A stretch of 64,000 bases of DNA from Halopiger djelfimassiliensis. Its GTDB lineage: Archaea > Halobacteriota > Halobacteria > Halobacteriales > Natrialbaceae. Both the position numbers and the translations under genes were made by a program. Positions 1,185-9,938 of the stretch are shown one piece after another (position 1 is the first letter of the stretch; each line of letters opens with the position of its first letter). Below the pieces are notes generated by a model. The model made no database searches and had not been told where the DNA came from. It was given only the letters and a program-made list of their open reading frames with translations. The DNA lies in NCBI RefSeq assembly GCF_000455365.1, contig NZ_HG315685.1, forward strand, positions 361,514-425,513. The letters are read 5' to 3'.

Positions 1185-3137
1185 TCACAGTGTATCGACG
1201 TCGAGGATCATGACGACCTCCCCTTCGCCTAGCACCGAGGCACCGCTGATCCCGGGCGCACCGCTCAGGACGCCTTCGAAGGGTTTGATCACGACCTCTT
1301 CCTGACCGACGACGTCGGAACATCGGAGACAGACCTGTCTGACGCTGTCTTTGATCCGAACGACCATGTCGTCGGTGGTGTGCTCCGCGTCCGGTACGTC
1401 GAGCCGATCGCCAAGCGACAGAAGCGGATAGACGCGATTGTCGTGGGTGATCGTCGACTGTCCCTCGACCGATTCGACGGTGACATCTTCGAACTCGGAG
1501 ATTTCGTCGATGTTCTTGATCGGGACGCCGTAGGTCTCGTCCCCGACGGTGACAAACAGGACACGAACGATGGCGACGCTGACCGGCAGCATCAGCGTGA
1601 TGCTGGTCCCCTCGTCGGGTTCGCTCTCGACGTTGATCGAGCCGTCCACGCCGCGGACGACCTGATTGACGACGTCCATCCCGACGCCACGACCGCTTAC
1701 CTCGGTCACCTCGTCGGTGGTCGAAAAGCCGGGGTGGAAGATCAGGTCGTACACTTCCGAGTCGTCGAGGAGTTTGACCTCGTCCTCGCCCATGATCCCC
1801 TGTTCGACCGCTTTGTTCCGGATCTTTTCGACGTCGAGGCCGCCACCGTCGTCCTCGACGGTCACGGAGACGCGATCCCGGTCGCGTTCGCCGACGAGCC
1901 TGATCGTCCCTTCGCGGGGTTTGCCCTTCCGTTCGCGCTCCTCGGGCGATTCGATCCCGTGGTCGACGGCGTTGCGGATGAGATGCATCAGCGGATCGCT
2001 CAACTCGTTGAGGATCGACCGATCCATCTCGATGTCGACCCCCTCCATCTGGAAGTCGATCTCCTTGTCCTGCTCGCGGGCGAGGTCGCGGACGACCCGC
2101 GGGAAGTTGCCCACGATCTTCTTCAGCGGCACCAGCCGGATTTCGAGCACCGTATCCTGCAAGCTCGCGGTGATCTTGCCGTGTTCCTCGAGTTCGTCCT
2201 CCGCTTCGACCAGGCCGCTGCCCTCGATGATCTTGCGCAGCTTGATCCGGCTTGTCACCATCTCCTCGACCTGGTTGTACAGCTGATCGATCTGCTCGAC
2301 GTTGACGCGAATCGACTCGACTTCATTGCTGCTGTGGTTGAGACTCGAGTCGTCCCCGTCGTCCTCGTCGGCGGTCTCGCCCGTCTGCTCGGCGACGACG
2401 ACGTCGGTGATCCGCTCGACGGCGACCGCGTCGACGTATCGGTTCTCCTCGTAGAACGTCTCGATGTCGTCGCTGTCGACGTCGCCCGCCGTCGTCACGT
2501 AGGCGTCGAAACTCGCGTCGAACTCGCCGGACTCGATCGCCTCGCCTTCCGGAGCCGTCCGGACGAAGTCGTACTCGTCTTTCGTCGAATCGATGACGAA
2601 CATCGCGTCGACCTGCGGGGAACCGGTGTCCTCGAGCTCGAGGATAATGCGGTAGACGTCCTCCGCGTCCTCGAGTTCGATCGCGTCGGCCAGCGCTTCT
2701 GTCGGGACGTCACGGTTGTCGTCCGGCGTCTCCCCGTCGTCCGCCGAGTCGTCGGCCGCCGTTTCGTCGTCGATCGAGGCGCGGATCGCCGCGATCGTCG
2801 ACTCCGGATCCGTCTCGGTCTCGCCGGTCTCGGAGATCTCGTCGACCATCTGCTCGAGGAGGTCGACGCCGCTGAAGATGAGGTCCATCCGCTCGGGCGT
2901 GACCGCGAGTTCGCCGTCCCTGATACAGTCGAGGAGGTCCTCGATCGCGTGGGCCAGGTTGCTCGCGCTCGTATACCCCATCACGCCGAAGTTCCCCTTG
3001 AGGTTGTGTGCGACCCGGAAGACCGTCTCGATGGCGTCGGAGCTTTCCGGATCGTCCTCGAGGTCCAGCAAGGCGTTGTTGAGTTTCTGGATGTCCTCCT
3101 GACTCTCCTGTACGAACGTGCTCGTCGCGTCGCTCAT
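1185..3137 (-). CDS. cheA: Chemotaxis histidine kinase CheA
   Basis: CheA autophosphorylates on histidine under control of transducer-CheW arrays and passes phosphate to CheY and CheB. An N-terminal HPt domain contains VAHNLKGNFG, with the phospho-acceptor at His44. An acidic P2-like linker follows, then the P3 dimerisation helices, the HATPase domain (N box IRNAVDHGI near residue 387, DDGGGL near 427, GRGVGMDVV) and a C-terminal CheW-like P5 domain from about residue 515. I chose the ATG at 3137 because it overlaps the cheB stop as ATGA and has a GGGGGTGG stretch about 5-12 bases upstream. An ATG three codons further upstream (3146) is possible. The gene is translationally coupled to cheB. 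Confidence 0.97.
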   Translation of the reverse strand: MSDATSTFVQESQEDIQKLNNALLDLEDDPESSDAIETVFRVAHNLKGNFGVMGYTSASNLAHAIEDLLDCIRDGELAVTPERMDLIFSGVDLLEQMVDEISETGETETDPESTIAAIRASIDDETAADDSADDGETPDDNRDVPTEALADAIELEDAEDVYRIILELEDTGSPQVDAMFVIDSTKDEYDFVRTAPEGEAIESGEFDASFDAYVTTAGDVDSDDIETFYEENRYVDAVAVERITDVVVAEQTGETADEDDGDDSSLNHSSNEVESIRVNVEQIDQLYNQVEEMVTSRIKLRKIIEGSGLVEAEDELEEHGKITASLQDTVLEIRLVPLKKIVGNFPRVVRDLAREQDKEIDFQMEGVDIEMDRSILNELSDPLMHLIRNAVDHGIESPEERERKGKPREGTIRLVGERDRDRVSVTVEDDGGGLDVEKIRNKAVEQGIMGEDEVKLLDDSEVYDLIFHPGFSTTDEVTEVSGRGVGMDVVNQVVRGVDGSINVESEPDEGTSITLMLPVSVAIVRVLFVTVGDETYGVPIKNIDEISEFEDVTVESVEGQSTITHDNRVYPLLSLGDRLDVPDAEHTTDDMVVRIKDSVRQVCLRCSDVVGQEEVVIKPFEGVLSGAPGISGASVLGEGEVVMILDVDTL

Positions 3138-4183
3138 GACGACCACCCCCGGAAGGCGTTGGTGATTCCCTCGGCGATTCGGTCTTTCGGCAGGACCATG
3201 TCGACGTCGACCTGCTCGGCGGCCACCTTGGGCATGCCGTAGACGCGGGACGTCGCCTCGTCTTGAACGATCGCCTTGCCGCCGGCGGCCTTGATCGCCG
3301 CCAGCCCGTCAGCGCCGTCGGCACCCATCCCGGTCAGTACGACGCCGGCGAGGTTGCCGGTAACCGTCTCCGCCGCGGTCTCCATCGTCACGTCGATCGC
3401 CGGCCTGACGTTGTGTCGCTCGGGACCGTCGTCGTGGACGACGGTGAGTTGGCCCGTCGTGAAGTCGGTCACCTCGAGATGGTACCCGCCCTTCGCCAGG
3501 ACGCCCTCACCGGGGCCGACGGTATCGCCGTCGGCCGCTTCTCGAAAGTCGTACGCCGTTCGTTCGTCGAGACGTTTTGCGAAACGTTTCGTGTAATGAT
3601 CTGCCATGTGTTGAACCACCAGAATTCGCAACCCTGCTCGTTTGGGAAGTTCGGACAACACCCGCTCAACGACGCGCGGGCCGCCGGTCGATGCACCGAT
3701 AACGAGCGTGGGATCGCAGGGGAACTCCTCGCCGACGTCGATCGTCGACACCTGCTCGTGATCGGTCCGTTCCCGGTCCAGTCCGGTCACGTCCGCCGTC
3801 GCGACCGCACGGACCCGATCGACGATGGTATCCTTTTGCGTCCAGATGTCAACCGACTGGTCGCCGGACGGCTTCGCGATGAAGTCGACCGCGCCGGCCT
3901 CGAGCGCATCGAACGTCGCCTCCGCGTTTTTGGTCGTCTCCGAACTGATGACGAGCATCGGGATCGGATGCTCGTCCATGACCCGATCGATCACCTCGTG
4001 GCCGTTCAGACCCGGCATGTTGATGTCGATCGTCGCGACGTCGGGTTCACAGTCCTCGATGAGGCTGACGGCCTCGTAGCCGTTCTTCGCCCGTCCCACG
4101 ACGTCGATCCCACCGGCCTCGAGGATTTTCCCGAGCGTTTCTCGCATCACGGCGGAGTCGTCTGCGATGACTGCTCGGACCAT
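3134..4183 (-). CDS. cheB: Protein-glutamate methylesterase/deamidase CheB
   Basis: CheB removes methyl groups from (and deamidates) transducer glutamates for adaptation. Residues 1-120 are a receiver domain with acidic pocket DD at 8-9 and phospho-acceptor Asp53 in TIDINMPG. Residues of about 155-349 are the methylesterase domain, with GASTGGPR (Ser near 164), VVQHMADH (His near 191) and GMGADGADG (Asp near 286), a complete catalytic triad. The start is ATG 4183, which overlaps the cheY stop as TAATG; the open frame upstream of it is cheY read out of frame. The length of 349 residues is normal. It is the second gene of the cheYBAC operon. Confidence 0.97.
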   Translation of the reverse strand: MVRAVIADDSAVMRETLGKILEAGGIDVVGRAKNGYEAVSLIEDCEPDVATIDINMPGLNGHEVIDRVMDEHPIPMLVISSETTKNAEATFDALEAGAVDFIAKPSGDQSVDIWTQKDTIVDRVRAVATADVTGLDRERTDHEQVSTIDVGEEFPCDPTLVIGASTGGPRVVERVLSELPKRAGLRILVVQHMADHYTKRFAKRLDERTAYDFREAADGDTVGPGEGVLAKGGYHLEVTDFTTGQLTVVHDDGPERHNVRPAIDVTMETAAETVTGNLAGVVLTGMGADGADGLAAIKAAGGKAIVQDEATSRVYGMPKVAAEQVDVDMVLPKDRIAEGITNAFRGWSS

Positions 4184-4542
4184 TAGGGCACAACGTCGTT
4201 GATCGCTTGCTGGACCGTGCTGTTCTCGAACGGTTTCATAATGTAGCCGTCGGCACCGGCCTCGATAGCGGGCTTGATTCGGTCCTGTTGCGTGACGCTC
4301 GTACAGAAAATAATCTTGACGTCTGGATACATCTCTTTGATCGTGGCAGTTGCTTCGATCCCGTCGACCTCCGGCATGACGATATCCATCATGATTACGT
4401 CGACGTCGCGTTGTTCGGTTATCTCGATGGCTTCGCCGCCGTTTGCGGCCTCCGCGACGACGTGAAACTCGTCGGAGACCACCTCCCGAAGGACGTCGCG
4501 CATCACCTCGGAGTTGTCGACGATCAATACGTTCACTGCCAT
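4183..4542 (-). CDS. cheY: Response regulator CheY (operon copy)
   Basis: This is a 119-residue single-domain receiver that would carry the phosphoryl signal from CheA to the archaellum through CheF. The phospho-acceptor is Asp53 (MMDIVMP), the switch Thr lies in FCTS, and the conserved Lys is in IMKPF. The first acidic-pocket position reads VDN instead of VDD, so the second metal-binding Asp is Asn10. The other CheY in the window, at 10229, keeps both aspartates. The start at 4542 gives the standard N-terminus MAVNVLIVD and sits about 30 bases after a TATA-like TTTATG. It heads the cheY-cheB-cheA-cheC operon. Confidence 0.95.
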   Translation of the reverse strand: MAVNVLIVDNSEVMRDVLREVVSDEFHVVAEAANGGEAIEITEQRDVDVIMMDIVMPEVDGIEATATIKEMYPDVKIIFCTSVTQQDRIKPAIEAGADGYIMKPFENSTVQQAINDVVP

Positions 4543-4577: not shown

Positions 4578-4685
4578 CGGCCAACCCCGTTTCTTGTTGT
4601 ACTGTTCGTTCCGCTTTCAAGGGTCTTGGGGCGGCCGATTTTGGCCGTGTGAGTTATGTGGGCAGAGTTGAAACGACCCAAGCGA

Positions 4686-5474
4686 ATGGCGGGATCCGCT
4701 CGGCTGTGTGTGACAAATCAGAAAGGGGGCGTCGGCAAGACGACCGTAGCGATCAACTTAGCCGGTGCGTTGAACGACCTCGGTCGAGACGTACTGTTCG
4801 TCGATCTCGATCCGCAGGGCAACGCGACCGAAGGGCTCGGCTTACTGGAAGCCTACGACGCCGAGCCGCCGGCGTTGCTCGATGCGCTCGTCGACCCGAC
4901 GGCCGTCCCACGTGATGAAATCATCTATTCCCACGCGGAGATGGACGTTATCACGAGCAACGTAGATATGAACGCGGCCGAGTCGGCGCTCATGCAGGAA
5001 TCGGACCCCGAAGCGCGCCTCGACGCGCTCCTCGAGCACGTCGAGACCGACTACGACGTCGTTGTGGTCGACTGTCCGCCCCACCTCGGTCTGCTTACGG
5101 ACAACGCGCTGTACGCGACCGAGAACCTCGTGATTCCGGCGCTTGCCGAACCGACCAGCAAACGCTCGCTCGAGTTGCTGTTCGATTACGTCGGCGCGCT
5201 CGAACTGGAACACGACGTCCAGATCGAACCGCGCGCGCTCGTCGCCAACCGCATCGAAAACACGCGGGCGGCGACCGACATGCTCGAGTGGTTCGAGGAC
5301 GCGTTGCCGGACGTACCGCTGTACCGGATCCGAAAGCGGGTGGCTCTCCAGCGTGCGTTCGCTGCGGGGACCTCGATCTTCGCCGCCGAGGAGGAGACCG
5401 ACATGCAGTCGGTCTTTACCTCGATGGCCGAAACGATCGACGAGCGACTCGATCCGACGGAGGTGCCGGCATGA
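4686..5474 (+). CDS. parA: ParA/MinD-family ATPase of the chemotaxis locus (ParC-like)
   Basis: This is a 262-residue ParA-type ATPase. The deviant Walker A KGGVGKTT with its signature lysine is at residues 13-20. The switch FVDLDPQGNAT lies near residue 38, and the Walker B-like VVVDCPPHLG near residue 124. Such ATPases position plasmids, septa or, as ParC and PpfA, bacterial chemosensory arrays. I used ATG 4686, which puts the Walker A at the usual distance from the N-terminus; an in-frame ATG at 4656 would add ten residues. The stop overlaps the next gene, a CheW-tailed protein, as ATGA. That coupling and the che context suggest array positioning rather than plasmid partition. No parB is adjacent. 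Confidence 0.9.
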   Translation: MAGSARLCVTNQKGGVGKTTVAINLAGALNDLGRDVLFVDLDPQGNATEGLGLLEAYDAEPPALLDALVDPTAVPRDEIIYSHAEMDVITSNVDMNAAESALMQESDPEARLDALLEHVETDYDVVVVDCPPHLGLLTDNALYATENLVIPALAEPTSKRSLELLFDYVGALELEHDVQIEPRALVANRIENTRAATDMLEWFEDALPDVPLYRIRKRVALQRAFAAGTSIFAAEEETDMQSVFTSMAETIDERLDPTEVPA

Positions 5475-6637
5475 CCGACGACAGAGCCCGCCGGATCAGA
5501 CGGATGCGAAACCGGGCTGCAAACGGGGGCGACGAGGACGGAGCGGAAGATGGGGCGGAATCGGGCGGCGACTCGACTGCGGACGACTCCGAACCCGAGG
5601 AGGGAACGCCGTCCGAGTCGACCGACGACCCCGACCACGACGAGCCGTCGACGGAGTCGGAAACAGCCCCCGACGAGGCGTCGGCCGACGAGACGGACGC
5701 GGACGGATCGGGGGATGGCGAGACGGTGTCGTACGACGAAGCCGAAACGGCCGCCGATGGATCGGCGGCCGAACAGCCGGATTCGGCGGCCGATCAGGAC
5801 GACGAAGCGCCCGAACCCTCGGCTGCTGATCCCGCTCCCCAACCCACTCGGTCGACCGAGCGTGGGTCTCAGGACGCCGACGCCACCGCGAGCGAGGCCG
5901 AACCGGACGCGAGCGTAGCCGCAAGCGGCGGTGCCGTTCCGGCAGCCGGGACCGACGAGGGACGGGTGACCCAGCAGGACATCGATCCGGCGCTCCGGGG
6001 CGCGATCGCCGATACGTCTGCGATGGCGGCCGCGATCGATGACGTCGGCGGGGAGCCGACGGTCGACACCACGGCCGTCATGCAGGATACGGACGGCTAC
6101 GGGAACGCGGCCGCGACGGTCGGCCGCGAGAACGCCGTGTTCGAACAGGGAGATACGCTGGTTCACTCGACTCACGACGGCGAAGATACCGTCCAGATGC
6201 TCGAGTTCTTCCTCAACGAGAACCGGTACGCCGTCGAGATCGATCGCATCAGTGCGATCGTCGAGATGAAAGACATCACGCGGTTCCCCCGCGGGCCGGA
6301 GGCCATCGACGGCGTCACCGACCTTCGCGGCGAGATTACCGGCATTCTCGATCCGACGATCATGCTCGACGTCGAGCGAAACGAGCTGTCGGACGATCAG
6401 TACATCGTCGTTCTCGAGCGGGACGACGACAAGCAGAAACTCGGGATTCGGGTGACGGACGTCTCGCAGGCGGTCACCTACCGCGAATCCCAGATCGACG
6501 AGACGGGGACCCTGATGGACGACGCGGGTGCCAGTCAGCACGAGTGTGTCAGGGGGATCATCAAAAAGACGACCGACGAGCAGACGACCCTCGTCGCCTG
6601 GCTGGACATCGACGAACTCATCGCGAACACGGAGTAG
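5471..6637 (+). CDS. cheW: CheW with arginine-rich N-terminus and long acidic linker (ParP-like architecture)
   Basis: The protein has 388 residues, over twice the length of a normal CheW. Residues 2-17 are arginine-rich ([11 protein letters not shown]). Residues of about 20-150 are low-complexity and dominated by Asp, Glu, Ser and Ala, so probably disordered. Residues of about 150-235 are a less biased segment, and 239-388 form a CheW domain ([33 protein letters not shown]). CheW couples transducers to CheA. The start overlaps parA as ATGA, implying coupled translation. ParA ATPases are commonly stimulated by short basic N-terminal peptides, so this N-terminus could be the ParA contact; that is inference. 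The CheW call is secure. Confidence 0.9.
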
Positions 6638-6753: not shown

Positions 6754-8373
6754 ATGTCTAGAACCGACGGTGGAGGGTTCACTATCGACACTGATTACCT
6801 CAGCGCTCTCGCAACGGCCGACGTCGATCGGGCCGACGTAAGCCGGGCGAAAGAACGCGTGTCGTTGCGCTCCGAGGACGAATCGCGTCTCGAATCCATG
6901 GCTGACGTGTTCGATTCCGTCAGCGGCGACCTCTCCGAGGCGTACGTCGACGACGTCCAGTCCCAGTCCGGCGTCGCGAACGCACTCGATCGAGCGGGCA
7001 CCGACGGCTCGCGCCTCGAGCAGGAACAACGGGAGTACCTGGAGACGATCGCCGGCGGTCGTTACGACGCCGGGTTCTTCGAGCAGCGCGTGACCGGCGA
7101 CGGCGTCGGGGCGTTGCTCGCGGCCGGCCCGGACGTGTATCTCGGTTCGTTCGGCGTCTACTACGAGGGCGTCCTGCGGGAGATCGCCGAAAACGTCAAG
7201 GCCGAGTACGGAGCCGACGAGGCCGATACCGACGCACAATCGGCGACCGACGACCGCACTGACGGCGGCGTGACCCTCTCGCCCTCCGCGGACGGGGCCG
7301 ATCCCACGGCGGCCGCCGTCGACGCCGTCGTCGACCGGACGCTTTCGTTCCTGCGGATGACGATGGTCGACCAGCAACTCGCTCTGGGGGCGTACGCGAA
7401 CGCCCAGCAGTCCCGACTCGAGGAGTGCGAAGCGCGGATCGAAGAACAGGACGCCCGGATCGAGGAGTACGAACGGAAACTCGACGAGCAACGGCGCGCC
7501 CGGACCGACATCGAGGACGCTCGACGGAACATCCGGAACACGCTCGAGCGGATCTCGACGTCGACCGACGAGGTCACCGAGAGCACGACGACGATCGACG
7601 AACTCGCGACCGAGCAGTCGGAGTCGATGGGCGAGATCGCAAGCGAAGTGTCGGGGCTGTCGGCGACCGTCGAGGAGATCGCGTCCAACGCGGAGGAGGT
7701 CAGCGCGACGAGCGAACGGGCCGAGGAGATCGCCTCGGAGACGACCGAGACCGCCGAGGAGGCCATCGACAAGATGGAACGCGTCGAGACGGCAGCGACC
7801 ACGGTCACCGAAGACGTCGCGGAGCTTCGACAGGGCGTCCAGCGCATCGACGAGATCGTCGAGGTGATCAACAACATCGCCGATCAGACGAACCTGCTTG
7901 CGCTGAACGCGTCGATCGAGGCAGCGACGGCCGGCGAGGCCGGCGACGGGTTCGCCGTCGTCGCCAACGAGGTCAAATCCCTCGCCGAGGAGTCCCAGGA
8001 GGAGGCGGCCAACATCGAACAACTGGTCGACCAGATCCAGGACGACACCCAAGAAACCGTCGAGAGCCTCGAGGAGGCAAACGAGGAGATCGCCGACGGC
8101 GTCGACCTCGTCGAAGAGACCGTCGAGAACCTGACCCAGATCACGGAGTCGGTCACGGAGGCCAGTACCGGGATTCAGGAGGTCGCAACGGCGACCGACG
8201 ATCAGGCCGCAAGCACCGAGGAGGTCGCCAGTATGACCGATACGGCGATGGAGAAATCACAGGCGGTCGCCGAGGAGATCGACACGATCGCCGGCGTGAC
8301 CGACCGGTTGAACGAACTGGTCGAGGAGATCGACACCGAAGTCCGCCGTCTCGAGACCGACGGCACCAACTGA
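6754..8373 (+). CDS. Cytoplasmic globin-coupled-type methyl-accepting transducer (HemAT-like, no proximal His)
   Basis: This 539-residue transducer has no transmembrane segment. Residues of about 1-215 resemble the protoglobin sensor of Hem[30 protein letters not shown] and [11 protein letters not shown] match the family layout. The heme-ligating histidine expected about ten residues before YLGS is glycine ([15 protein letters not shown]). A coiled coil starts near residue 225, and the signalling hairpin tip ([19 protein letters not shown], then [16 protein letters not shown]) lies near residues 370-415. The ligand is unknown if heme is absent. It lies between two cheW genes, so it probably signals to the local CheA. 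ATG 6754 follows a TATA-like element; the longer upstream frame is cheW read out of frame. Confidence 0.88.
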
Positions 8374-8387
8374 GACACTGAGAACCC

Positions 8388-8834
8388 ATGGCAACGACAG
8401 AACACACTATCGACGCGGACGCAGCCGAAACCACCACGCACGTACTCGAGTTCGATCTCGGCGAGAACAGGTACTGCATCGACATCGGCTACGTCGCGGA
8501 GATCGTCAACACCGACGAACTGACCGCGATTCCGAACACGCCCCCTCACGTCGAGGGGGTCATGGATCTCCGGGGCGAAACGACGAAGATCGTCAACCTC
8601 CGGACGATCTTCGACGACGCCGCCGACGCCGAACTCGGCAGCCGGATCATCGTCTTCAAACGCAAACGTGGCTCCGACGAACGGATCGGCTGGCTCGCCG
8701 ACGAGGTCCGACAGGTCCGGCAACTCAACGTCGAAACCGTCGACACCTCGGTCGAAGGGAAAGGCATCGCCGGCGTCGTTCGACAGGAAGACGAGTTCGT
8801 CCTCTGGATCGATCCGACCGACGTTCGCGTCTGA
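8388..8834 (+). CDS. cheW: Chemotaxis adaptor CheW (short copy)
   Basis: This 148-residue single-domain CheW links transducers to CheA. The domain spans residues of about 18-145 (HVLEFDLGENRYCIDI, GVMDLRGETTKIVNLR, GVVRQEDEFVLWID). It starts 14 bases after the transducer stop, so it is probably cotranscribed with it. Unlike the CheW at 5471 it has no N-terminal extension, so it can serve as the plain coupling protein while the long one has a second job. Confidence 0.95.
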   Translation: MATTEHTIDADAAETTTHVLEFDLGENRYCIDIGYVAEIVNTDELTAIPNTPPHVEGVMDLRGETTKIVNLRTIFDDAADAELGSRIIVFKRKRGSDERIGWLADEVRQVRQLNVETVDTSVEGKGIAGVVRQEDEFVLWIDPTDVRV

Positions 8835-9128: not shown

Positions 9129-9938
9129 GTGACCACGGACGATTCATTTACCGCCCTCCTCGAGTATATGGAAACCGACCTGTCGTTCGCGACGAGTCAC
9201 TACAACGATAGTTACCTCGATCGCCGCATCACGGCACGGATACGGCGAACGAGGTGTGACGACTACGACGAGTATTTCGATCTCCTGCAGTCCGACCCGG
9301 ACGAACAGGCCGCGTTGCTCGATTCGATGAGTATCAACGTCACGGGCTTCTTTCGAAACCCCGGGGTCTGGGACGGCATTCGGGACGTTCTCCGGACGCT
9401 GTCGTCGACCACGGATCGCCTCGAGATATGGAGTGCCGCCTGTGCCGACGGCCGGGAACCGTACTCGCTGTCGATGCTGGCCCACGACGACCCGCGGATC
9501 GACGAATCCGCGGTTCGCATTCTGGCGACCGATATCAGCGAGGACGCGCTCGAGGTCGCCCGGAACGGCGTCTATGAGGAATCGCGGACGACCGACATCG
9601 AAGGCGAACTCGACTACCTCTCCAATCCAGACCGGTACGTCGAGTACGACTCGACCGCGGAAACCTATCGCGTTCGGGACTCGGTCAAGGAACGCGTCAC
9701 GTTCGAGCGACACGACCTCATCAACGGCGGCCCGAAGTCCGGGTTCAACCTCGTCACCTGTCGGAACCTCTTTATCTACATCGACACCGAGTACAAACGA
9801 ACCATGCTCGAGACGATCGCACGGTCGCTTCGGCCCGATGGGTACCTCGTCATCGGGAAAAGCGAGACGATCCCGCCGGCGCTCAAATCCGAGTTCAGCG
9901 CGACGGATAACCGCCACCGCATCTACGAGCGGACGTAA
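9129..9938 (+). CDS. cheR: Chemotaxis protein methyltransferase CheR
   Basis: CheR methylates transducer glutamates using S-adenosylmethionine, opposing CheB. The protein has 269 residues. An N-terminal helical domain (LLEYMETDLSFATSHYN) is followed by NVTGFFRNPGVWD, the SAM-binding loop SAACADGREPYSL near residue 103, ATDISEDALEVAR, and LVTCRNLFIYID near residue 213. The start codon is GTG. A TATA-like AAACTTATTG lies about 37-46 bases upstream. The 294-base gap after cheW (8835-9128) shows no other gene. Confidence 0.96.
   Translation: MTTDDSFTALLEYMETDLSFATSHYNDSYLDRRITARIRRTRCDDYDEYFDLLQSDPDEQAALLDSMSINVTGFFRNPGVWDGIRDVLRTLSSTTDRLEIWSAACADGREPYSLSMLAHDDPRIDESAVRILATDISEDALEVARNGVYEESRTTDIEGELDYLSNPDRYVEYDSTAETYRVRDSVKERVTFERHDLINGGPKSGFNLVTCRNLFIYIDTEYKRTMLETIARSLRPDGYLVIGKSETIPPALKSEFSATDNRHRIYERT

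Follow-up and report, generated by a model that had tools for sequence, protein, structure and literature searches.

The ParA-CheW gene pair in the che locus

The window (the whole 64,000-nucleotide stretch of DNA analysed here) contains a haloarchaeal che locus. The genes cheA (positions 1185-3146; matches to Hpt, P2, H-kinase_dim, HATPase, and CheW domains), cheB (3134-4186), and cheY (4183-4542; Response_reg, 7.2e-30) lie on the reverse strand and point leftwards. A parA gene (4686-5474) is divergent from them, 143 bp from cheY. It is followed on the forward strand by genes for a CheW fusion protein (5471-6637) and a HemAT-like cytoplasmic transducer that is a candidate cargo receptor (6754-8373; MCPsignal, 5.3e-46; Protoglobin, 7.3e-8), by the canonical short cheW2, whose product has no N-terminal peptide (8388-8834; CheW, 6e-26), and by cheR (9129-9938), cheY, and a two-domain cheC. 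A second, longer CheA of 1313 codons (G000:C3:654682-659889) is encoded elsewhere in the genome together with its own CheW, and no ParA pair accompanies it.

The 262-residue parA product matches the Pfam AAA_31 family (E = 3.6e-42), and its nearest relatives in the PDB are ParA/Soj proteins. It has a KGGVGKTT Walker A motif with the signature lysine (4722-4745), followed by DLDPQGN and VVVVDCPP motifs. Residues K23, G24, G25, G27, and K28 (P0001 numbering) are invariant across 78 related ParA sequences, as are R226 and R228, the latter pair being only suggestive of non-specific DNA binding. The archaeal MinD model scores 64.9 on this protein, far below its cut-off of 201.75. Its deviant Walker A motif, DxDPQGN motif, and ParA/Soj relatives in the PDB mark it as a ParA-like ATPase, as opposed to a MinD-like one. 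Its closest relatives are haloarchaeal, many of them plasmid-borne, with a best identity of 62%. An in-frame ATG is present upstream in the window itself, at 4656. Several Natrialbaceae relatives have an upstream stop codon and no start codon before the methionine of the MAG sequence, which supports the start at 4686.

The stop codon of parA and the start codon of the fusion gene overlap by ATGA (5471-5474) as originally predicted, and the same -4 offset is found in nearly all related and plasmid-borne pairs. The fusion protein, a putative array adaptor, has 388 residues in three parts. The N-terminal peptide (5471-5524) is a putative ParA contact, and the first 17 residues are arginine-rich with a net charge of +5. 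The linker (5525-6190; residues 18-239) is rich in Asp, Glu, and Ala, with 6.8% Pro and a net charge of -58. The C-terminal CheW domain (6194-6628; residues 242-386) matches Pfam PF01584 with E = 2.1e-21 and a score of 76.5 bits against a cut-off of 23.5. The original prediction of an arginine-rich N terminus and a C-terminal CheW domain was thus confirmed; its acidic disordered stretch is indeed acidic and disordered, but spans about 220 residues and not about 130. AlphaFold2 predicts a helix at residues 3-18 (pLDDT ~80), disorder from about 21 to 235 (pLDDT mostly <50), and then a CheW fold, which Foldseek matches to PDB 2ch4 (E = 1.2e-9). Hydrophobic residues of the receptor-binding groove are retained, with L244, I257, I260, and I263 aligning with L14, V27, I30, and V33 of Thermotoga maritima CheW. 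Residue W377 is invariant in the paired CheWs, and a Trp is found in the same strand of the canonical CheW2; the published position of W305, the CheA-contact tryptophan of ParP (S125 in T. maritima CheW), is not placeable on the alignment.

Conservation of the peptide and distribution of the pair

A motif R[AS]xR[IL] occurs within the first 40 residues of all 62 haloarchaeal CheWs linked to a ParA of the window's type (type I). After shuffling of those residues the motif was found in a mean of 0.36 and a maximum of 4 sequences. Of the 73 open frames for CheWs with no ParA neighbour, 3 contain it. Across 27 aligned fusions, M1, R5, A6, R8, R10, and R13 are invariant and there are no further such residues until the CheW domain, so that the linker contains no invariant column. 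The invariant columns, together with the count of 62 against the shuffles, lead us to reject chance or artefact as the source of the fusion layout. With a profile made solely from plasmid adaptors (described below), the top-scoring site fell within the first 20 residues in 62 of 64 paired CheWs. The background of this profile against stop-to-stop open reading frames was poor because antisense frames of GC-rich DNA are rich in Arg, and we therefore rely on the shuffles and on the type-II alignment given below. Some partners have two copies of the arginine-rich peptide near the N terminus, as in L067 (start near 2149; RADRIRRRR...RADRISRAR), and the partner at L070:6888-8561 has a second copy near residue 69.

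A ParA scan over 84,980 genomes yielded 80 loci. The parA-cheW order is retained in 16 Natrialbaceae loci, nearly all of them inside a che cluster, and in 37 loci, mostly from Haloarculaceae, with no cheA within 6 kb. The Haloarculaceae pair divergently adjoins a short gene with an ArlD/E (archaellum) domain in 30 of these 37 loci (L036 to L084; e.g. L036:4090-5806), and the gene for the actin homologue salactin is nearby in 26 of them. This neighbourhood is possibly a cell-pole or motility locus. Salactin forms filaments that grow from the poles in Halobacterium salinarum; the paper on salactin describes its synteny as poor and makes no mention of the parA-cheW adjacency. At L102 a distant MinD-like gene lies upstream of a cheW, and the two are not a pair of the kind described here.

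Co-occurrence with CheA was assessed in a sample of 69 genomes of the class, of which 58 have CheA. The original prediction proposed conservation of the pair across haloarchaea with CheA as a check. Such conservation holds in one direction: all 15 genomes with the pair have CheA, but those 15 are the only ones among the 58 and come from just two families, leaving 43 cheA-positive genomes without it. Since the pair is always found with CheA, co-occurrence does not refute the original prediction, yet the module is lineage-restricted. Within the window's family the pair is found in all 7 genomes that have a short, taxis-type CheA (an open frame of up to 800 codons) and is missing from all 10 genomes whose only CheA is long (1,099 codons or more). 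The probability of such a split arising by chance is 1 in 19,448 if relatedness is ignored. Several relatives of the window genome are among those with only the long type. In the Haloarculaceae-like family 8 of 11 genomes have the pair, and the CheW loci examined in the other sampled families yielded no ParA-CheW pair. A canonical CheW is also present in the sampled genomes with the pair. Haloarchaea without the pair evidently use other positioning factors, such as MinD4 and MinD2 in Haloferax volcanii.

Probable plasmid partition adaptors and exchange of the C-terminal domain

The sister ParAs, many of them plasmid-borne, for example those of Halobacterium pHS4 and Haloferax pHG4, are followed by a gene for a small "hypothetical" protein, which also overlaps parA by ATGA. 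Most of these proteins begin with the peptide of the fusions (MSDDRADRLRRRR...), and the arginine motif is found in 25 of the 27 open frames examined. The peptide is followed by a charged linker and then by a different conserved C-terminal domain (...VGTYMYLP...EKNRHFYPLVV...). This domain is predicted with confidence to be helical, and its matches among the PHROG families are to ones of unknown function (phrog_29165-like); no PDB fold match and no Pfam family were found for it. It presumably binds plasmid DNA, and our guess from its sequence is that it may be ribbon-helix-helix-like. Because the domain has no known fold match, a cargo role for these plasmid adaptors is itself putative. A family of small plasmid proteins overlapping parA (L045:6792-7187, with similar proteins in L023-L068, L146, and L148) probably represents haloarchaeal partition adaptors, and has so far been uncharacterised.

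More distant ParAs have partners of similar layout with other peptides (DRLSxRF, DPFDQRYDED, and SGIEGNYDDD). Distinct peptide classes track different ParA clades (L153, L155, L156, L159-L161, L163, and L165-L170), possibly constituting a code of ATPase-adaptor specificity. A related ParA on pNRC100 (L147:2492-3256), for which no partner is annotated, is encoded directly after the gas-vesicle genes gvpC-N-O.

The ParA tree shows exactly one change of peptide class (support 99), and one or two changes of the cargo domain. Because the fusions and the plasmid adaptors of sister ParAs have the peptide in common and differ at their C termini, we conclude that the peptide follows the ParA and that it is the C-terminal domain which has been exchanged.

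A second type of pair is found in two genomes of the window's family (G020 and G057). Its ParA, with the Walker A sequence KGGTGKT, is ~37% identical to the window ParA, and its CheW partner has a different N terminus. At one locus (L124) the type-II pair is followed by cheB. The type-II ParAs are 68-69% identical to plasmid ParAs, that of L124 being 68% identical to a Halocatena plasmid ParA. When the type-II CheW of L125 is aligned with the Halocatena plasmid adaptor, 26 of 37 N-terminal residues are identical (70%, E = 5e-17) and the C termini are unrelated. This exchange, which mirrors that of type I with unrelated sequences, is the strongest single argument that the N terminus may be a module for ParA contact, with CheW as the end that holds the cargo.

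Since a single ParA clade for all type-I CheW pairs could not be rejected (p-AU 0.44 and 0.62), it is uncertain how many exchanges took place within type I. A single clade for all type-I paired CheW domains was mildly rejected (p-AU 0.042). In the CheW/P5 tree, which comprises haloarchaeal sequences and excludes bacterial ParP AIF sequences, the Natrialbaceae paired domains, including that of the window, fall in one clade together with solo CheWs from a different haloarchaeal family. The Haloarculaceae paired domains fall among canonical CheWs. The haloarchaeal CheA-P5 domains form one clade (support 99), and the type-I paired domains lie outside it.

A candidate positioning module for chemosensory arrays

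We consider it likely that the pair is a ParA-type cargo-positioning module with the chemosensory array as its cargo, and that it arose in archaea from a partition adaptor. By analogy, the fusion would be a ParP-like array adaptor built in archaea from plasmid-partition modules. ParP joins a ParC-contacting N terminus to a CheW-like domain inserted in the array (PMC5706961). Residues 1-20 of ParB bind at the ParA dimer interface as a helix and stimulate the ATPase together with DNA (PMC12462528), and the adaptors of many ParA cargos generally use charged disordered N termini (PMC10241942). In the mechanism we envisage, the CheW domain of the fusion would insert into receptor-CheA arrays, leaving signalling to the canonical CheW and CheA. 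The tethered helix would bind the ATP-bound ParA dimer and, with DNA, trigger ATP hydrolysis and release, as ParB N termini do. Through such binding and release by array-borne peptides, the arrays would follow, or be held by, nucleoid-bound ParA, which would thereby space, segregate, or polarise them at division. The module probably originated when CheW took the place of a partition adaptor's own C-terminal domain, which presumably bound the plasmid. Several points count against a positioning module: most cheA-positive haloarchaea (43 of 58) lack the pair, the arrays of H. volcanii depend on MinD4 and MinD2 (PMC11588486), the pair lies outside the cheA locus in Haloarculaceae, and the cargo role of plasmid adaptors is itself putative.

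The original prediction compared the pair with bacterial ParC/ParP. In Vibrio ParC/ParP, as here, a ParA-type gene lies immediately upstream of the adaptor gene, and the adaptor has an N-terminal ATPase-contact region (putative in the present case), a long linker, and a C-terminal CheW-like array domain with the hydrophobic residues of the receptor groove retained (PMC5706961). The Vibrio genes also lie in a che operon, as in the window and the Natrialbaceae, although the Haloarculaceae pairs lie outside the cheA locus. On the other hand, the Vibrio ParP linker is proline-rich, whereas that in the window is acidic. The array domain of bacterial ParP has been reported to be closer to P5 (PMC5706961), whereas that in the window is a haloarchaeal CheW. 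Both the peptide and the ParA in the window are of the kind found in haloarchaeal plasmid systems, HubP is not known here, and the pair is absent from most haloarchaea. The likeness is thus upheld in the sense of a system that may work similarly, given the N-terminal peptide common to the plasmid adaptors and the exchange with two unrelated peptides; membership of the ParC/ParP family is not, since haloarchaeal CheWs, as opposed to CheA-P5, are the group in which the CheW domain falls and the nearest kin of the ParA are haloarchaeal.

The nearest mechanism to that of the window pair is probably, by analogy, Rhodobacter PpfA/TlpT. TlpT is a soluble receptor and not a CheW, unlike the window partner. 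The likeness, drawn from published descriptions, is that a ParA-type ATPase distributes a chemotaxis cluster via the nucleoid (PMC10241942, PMC5706961). The haloarchaeal plasmid systems have a sister ParA, the ATGA overlap, the N-terminal peptide, and a disordered linker of the same type, but have a small helical C-terminal domain where the window partner has CheW. In H. volcanii the ATPases needed for array localisation, MinD4 and MinD2, also belong to the ParA/MinD family (PMC11588486). They are however of the MinD type, with no CheW fusion partner reported, whereas the window ParA resembles plasmid ParAs. Canonical haloarchaeal CheWs, such as CheW2 of the window and H. salinarum CheW1 (PMC3579733), have the CheW domain in common with the fusion but neither a ParA neighbour nor the peptide or long linker.

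We favour the nucleoid as the matrix for positioning because the ParA is of the plasmid type. The main rival is a ParC-like arrangement in which a polar landmark recruits ParA, which in turn holds the arrays at the pole, the nucleoid not serving as matrix. The polar location of arrays in H. volcanii (PMC6509185) and the archaellum-domain gene and salactin beside the Haloarculaceae pairs (30 and 26 of the 37 loci) are consistent with such an anchor. We nevertheless consider it unlikely, since the nearest relatives of the ParA are plasmid-partition ParAs, pointing to nucleoid tracking, and no landmark gene is linked to the pair within the window. A role in signalling, in which information on array state passes from the peptide-CheW protein to ParA, or in the opposite direction, and so controls signalling or CheW supply, for example with ParA as a sequestering switch, appears improbable to us. 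It would account for the canonical CheW that is also present in pair genomes, and H. salinarum CheW2 binds receptors without CheA, so that extra CheWs may tune arrays (PMC3579733). However, characterised ParA partners of similar layout act in positioning (PMC10241942), and the occurrence of the peptide in plasmid adaptors points to cargo tethering.

The similar gene order and three-part layout (PMC5706961) could also be explained if the pair had come from bacteria by horizontal transfer and were truly orthologous to ParC/ParP. This is very unlikely. The ParA groups with haloarchaeal plasmid ParAs, whose adaptors also have the peptide, the CheW domain falls among haloarchaeal CheWs and apart from P5, and two unrelated peptides are in use; neither the ParA tree nor the CheW tree, from both of which bacterial ParP/ParC sequences were absent, supports ParP by descent. 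That the ParA still serves a plasmid or chromosomal locus and has CheW as its neighbour by chance is barely credible, in spite of its plasmid type. The ATGA overlap and the peptide are retained in more than 60 loci, in two families and with two unrelated ParA clades, and the pair tracks the taxis-type CheA within the window's family. Conservation on this scale rejects the chance placement of an unrelated ParA. Returning to the positioning module, it seems probable that array positioning by these pairs is independent of bacterial ParC/ParP, plasmid ParA-adaptor modules having been recruited at least twice with the adaptor end replaced by CheW each time. On the same reading, repeated recruitment with two unrelated ParA/peptide pairs implies that ParA-adaptor modules form a modular, re-targetable archaeal positioning system.

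The pairing of ParA with CheW in archaea seems to have been undescribed so far. No such pair was found in the literature searched, a scope that many subscription papers fall outside. In the portions available to us, the Natrialba magadii genome paper describes two cheW genes in the che-fla locus and names no ParA beside them, and the H. salinarum interaction study reports no ParA-CheW pair. Work on H. volcanii invoked unspecified MinD/ParA homologues for array placement (PMC6509185), and MinD4 and MinD2 were later named in that organism without a known link to the array. A physical link is now visible in sequence, in the form of a CheW domain that carries a putative ParA peptide. The two independent exchanges amount to domain swaps carried out by nature, in which ATPase specificity, residing in the peptide, is separated from the choice of cargo, residing in the C-terminal domain. 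They supply short peptides and paired genes that are directly testable, and the findings also point to an undescribed family of haloarchaeal plasmid-partition adaptors.
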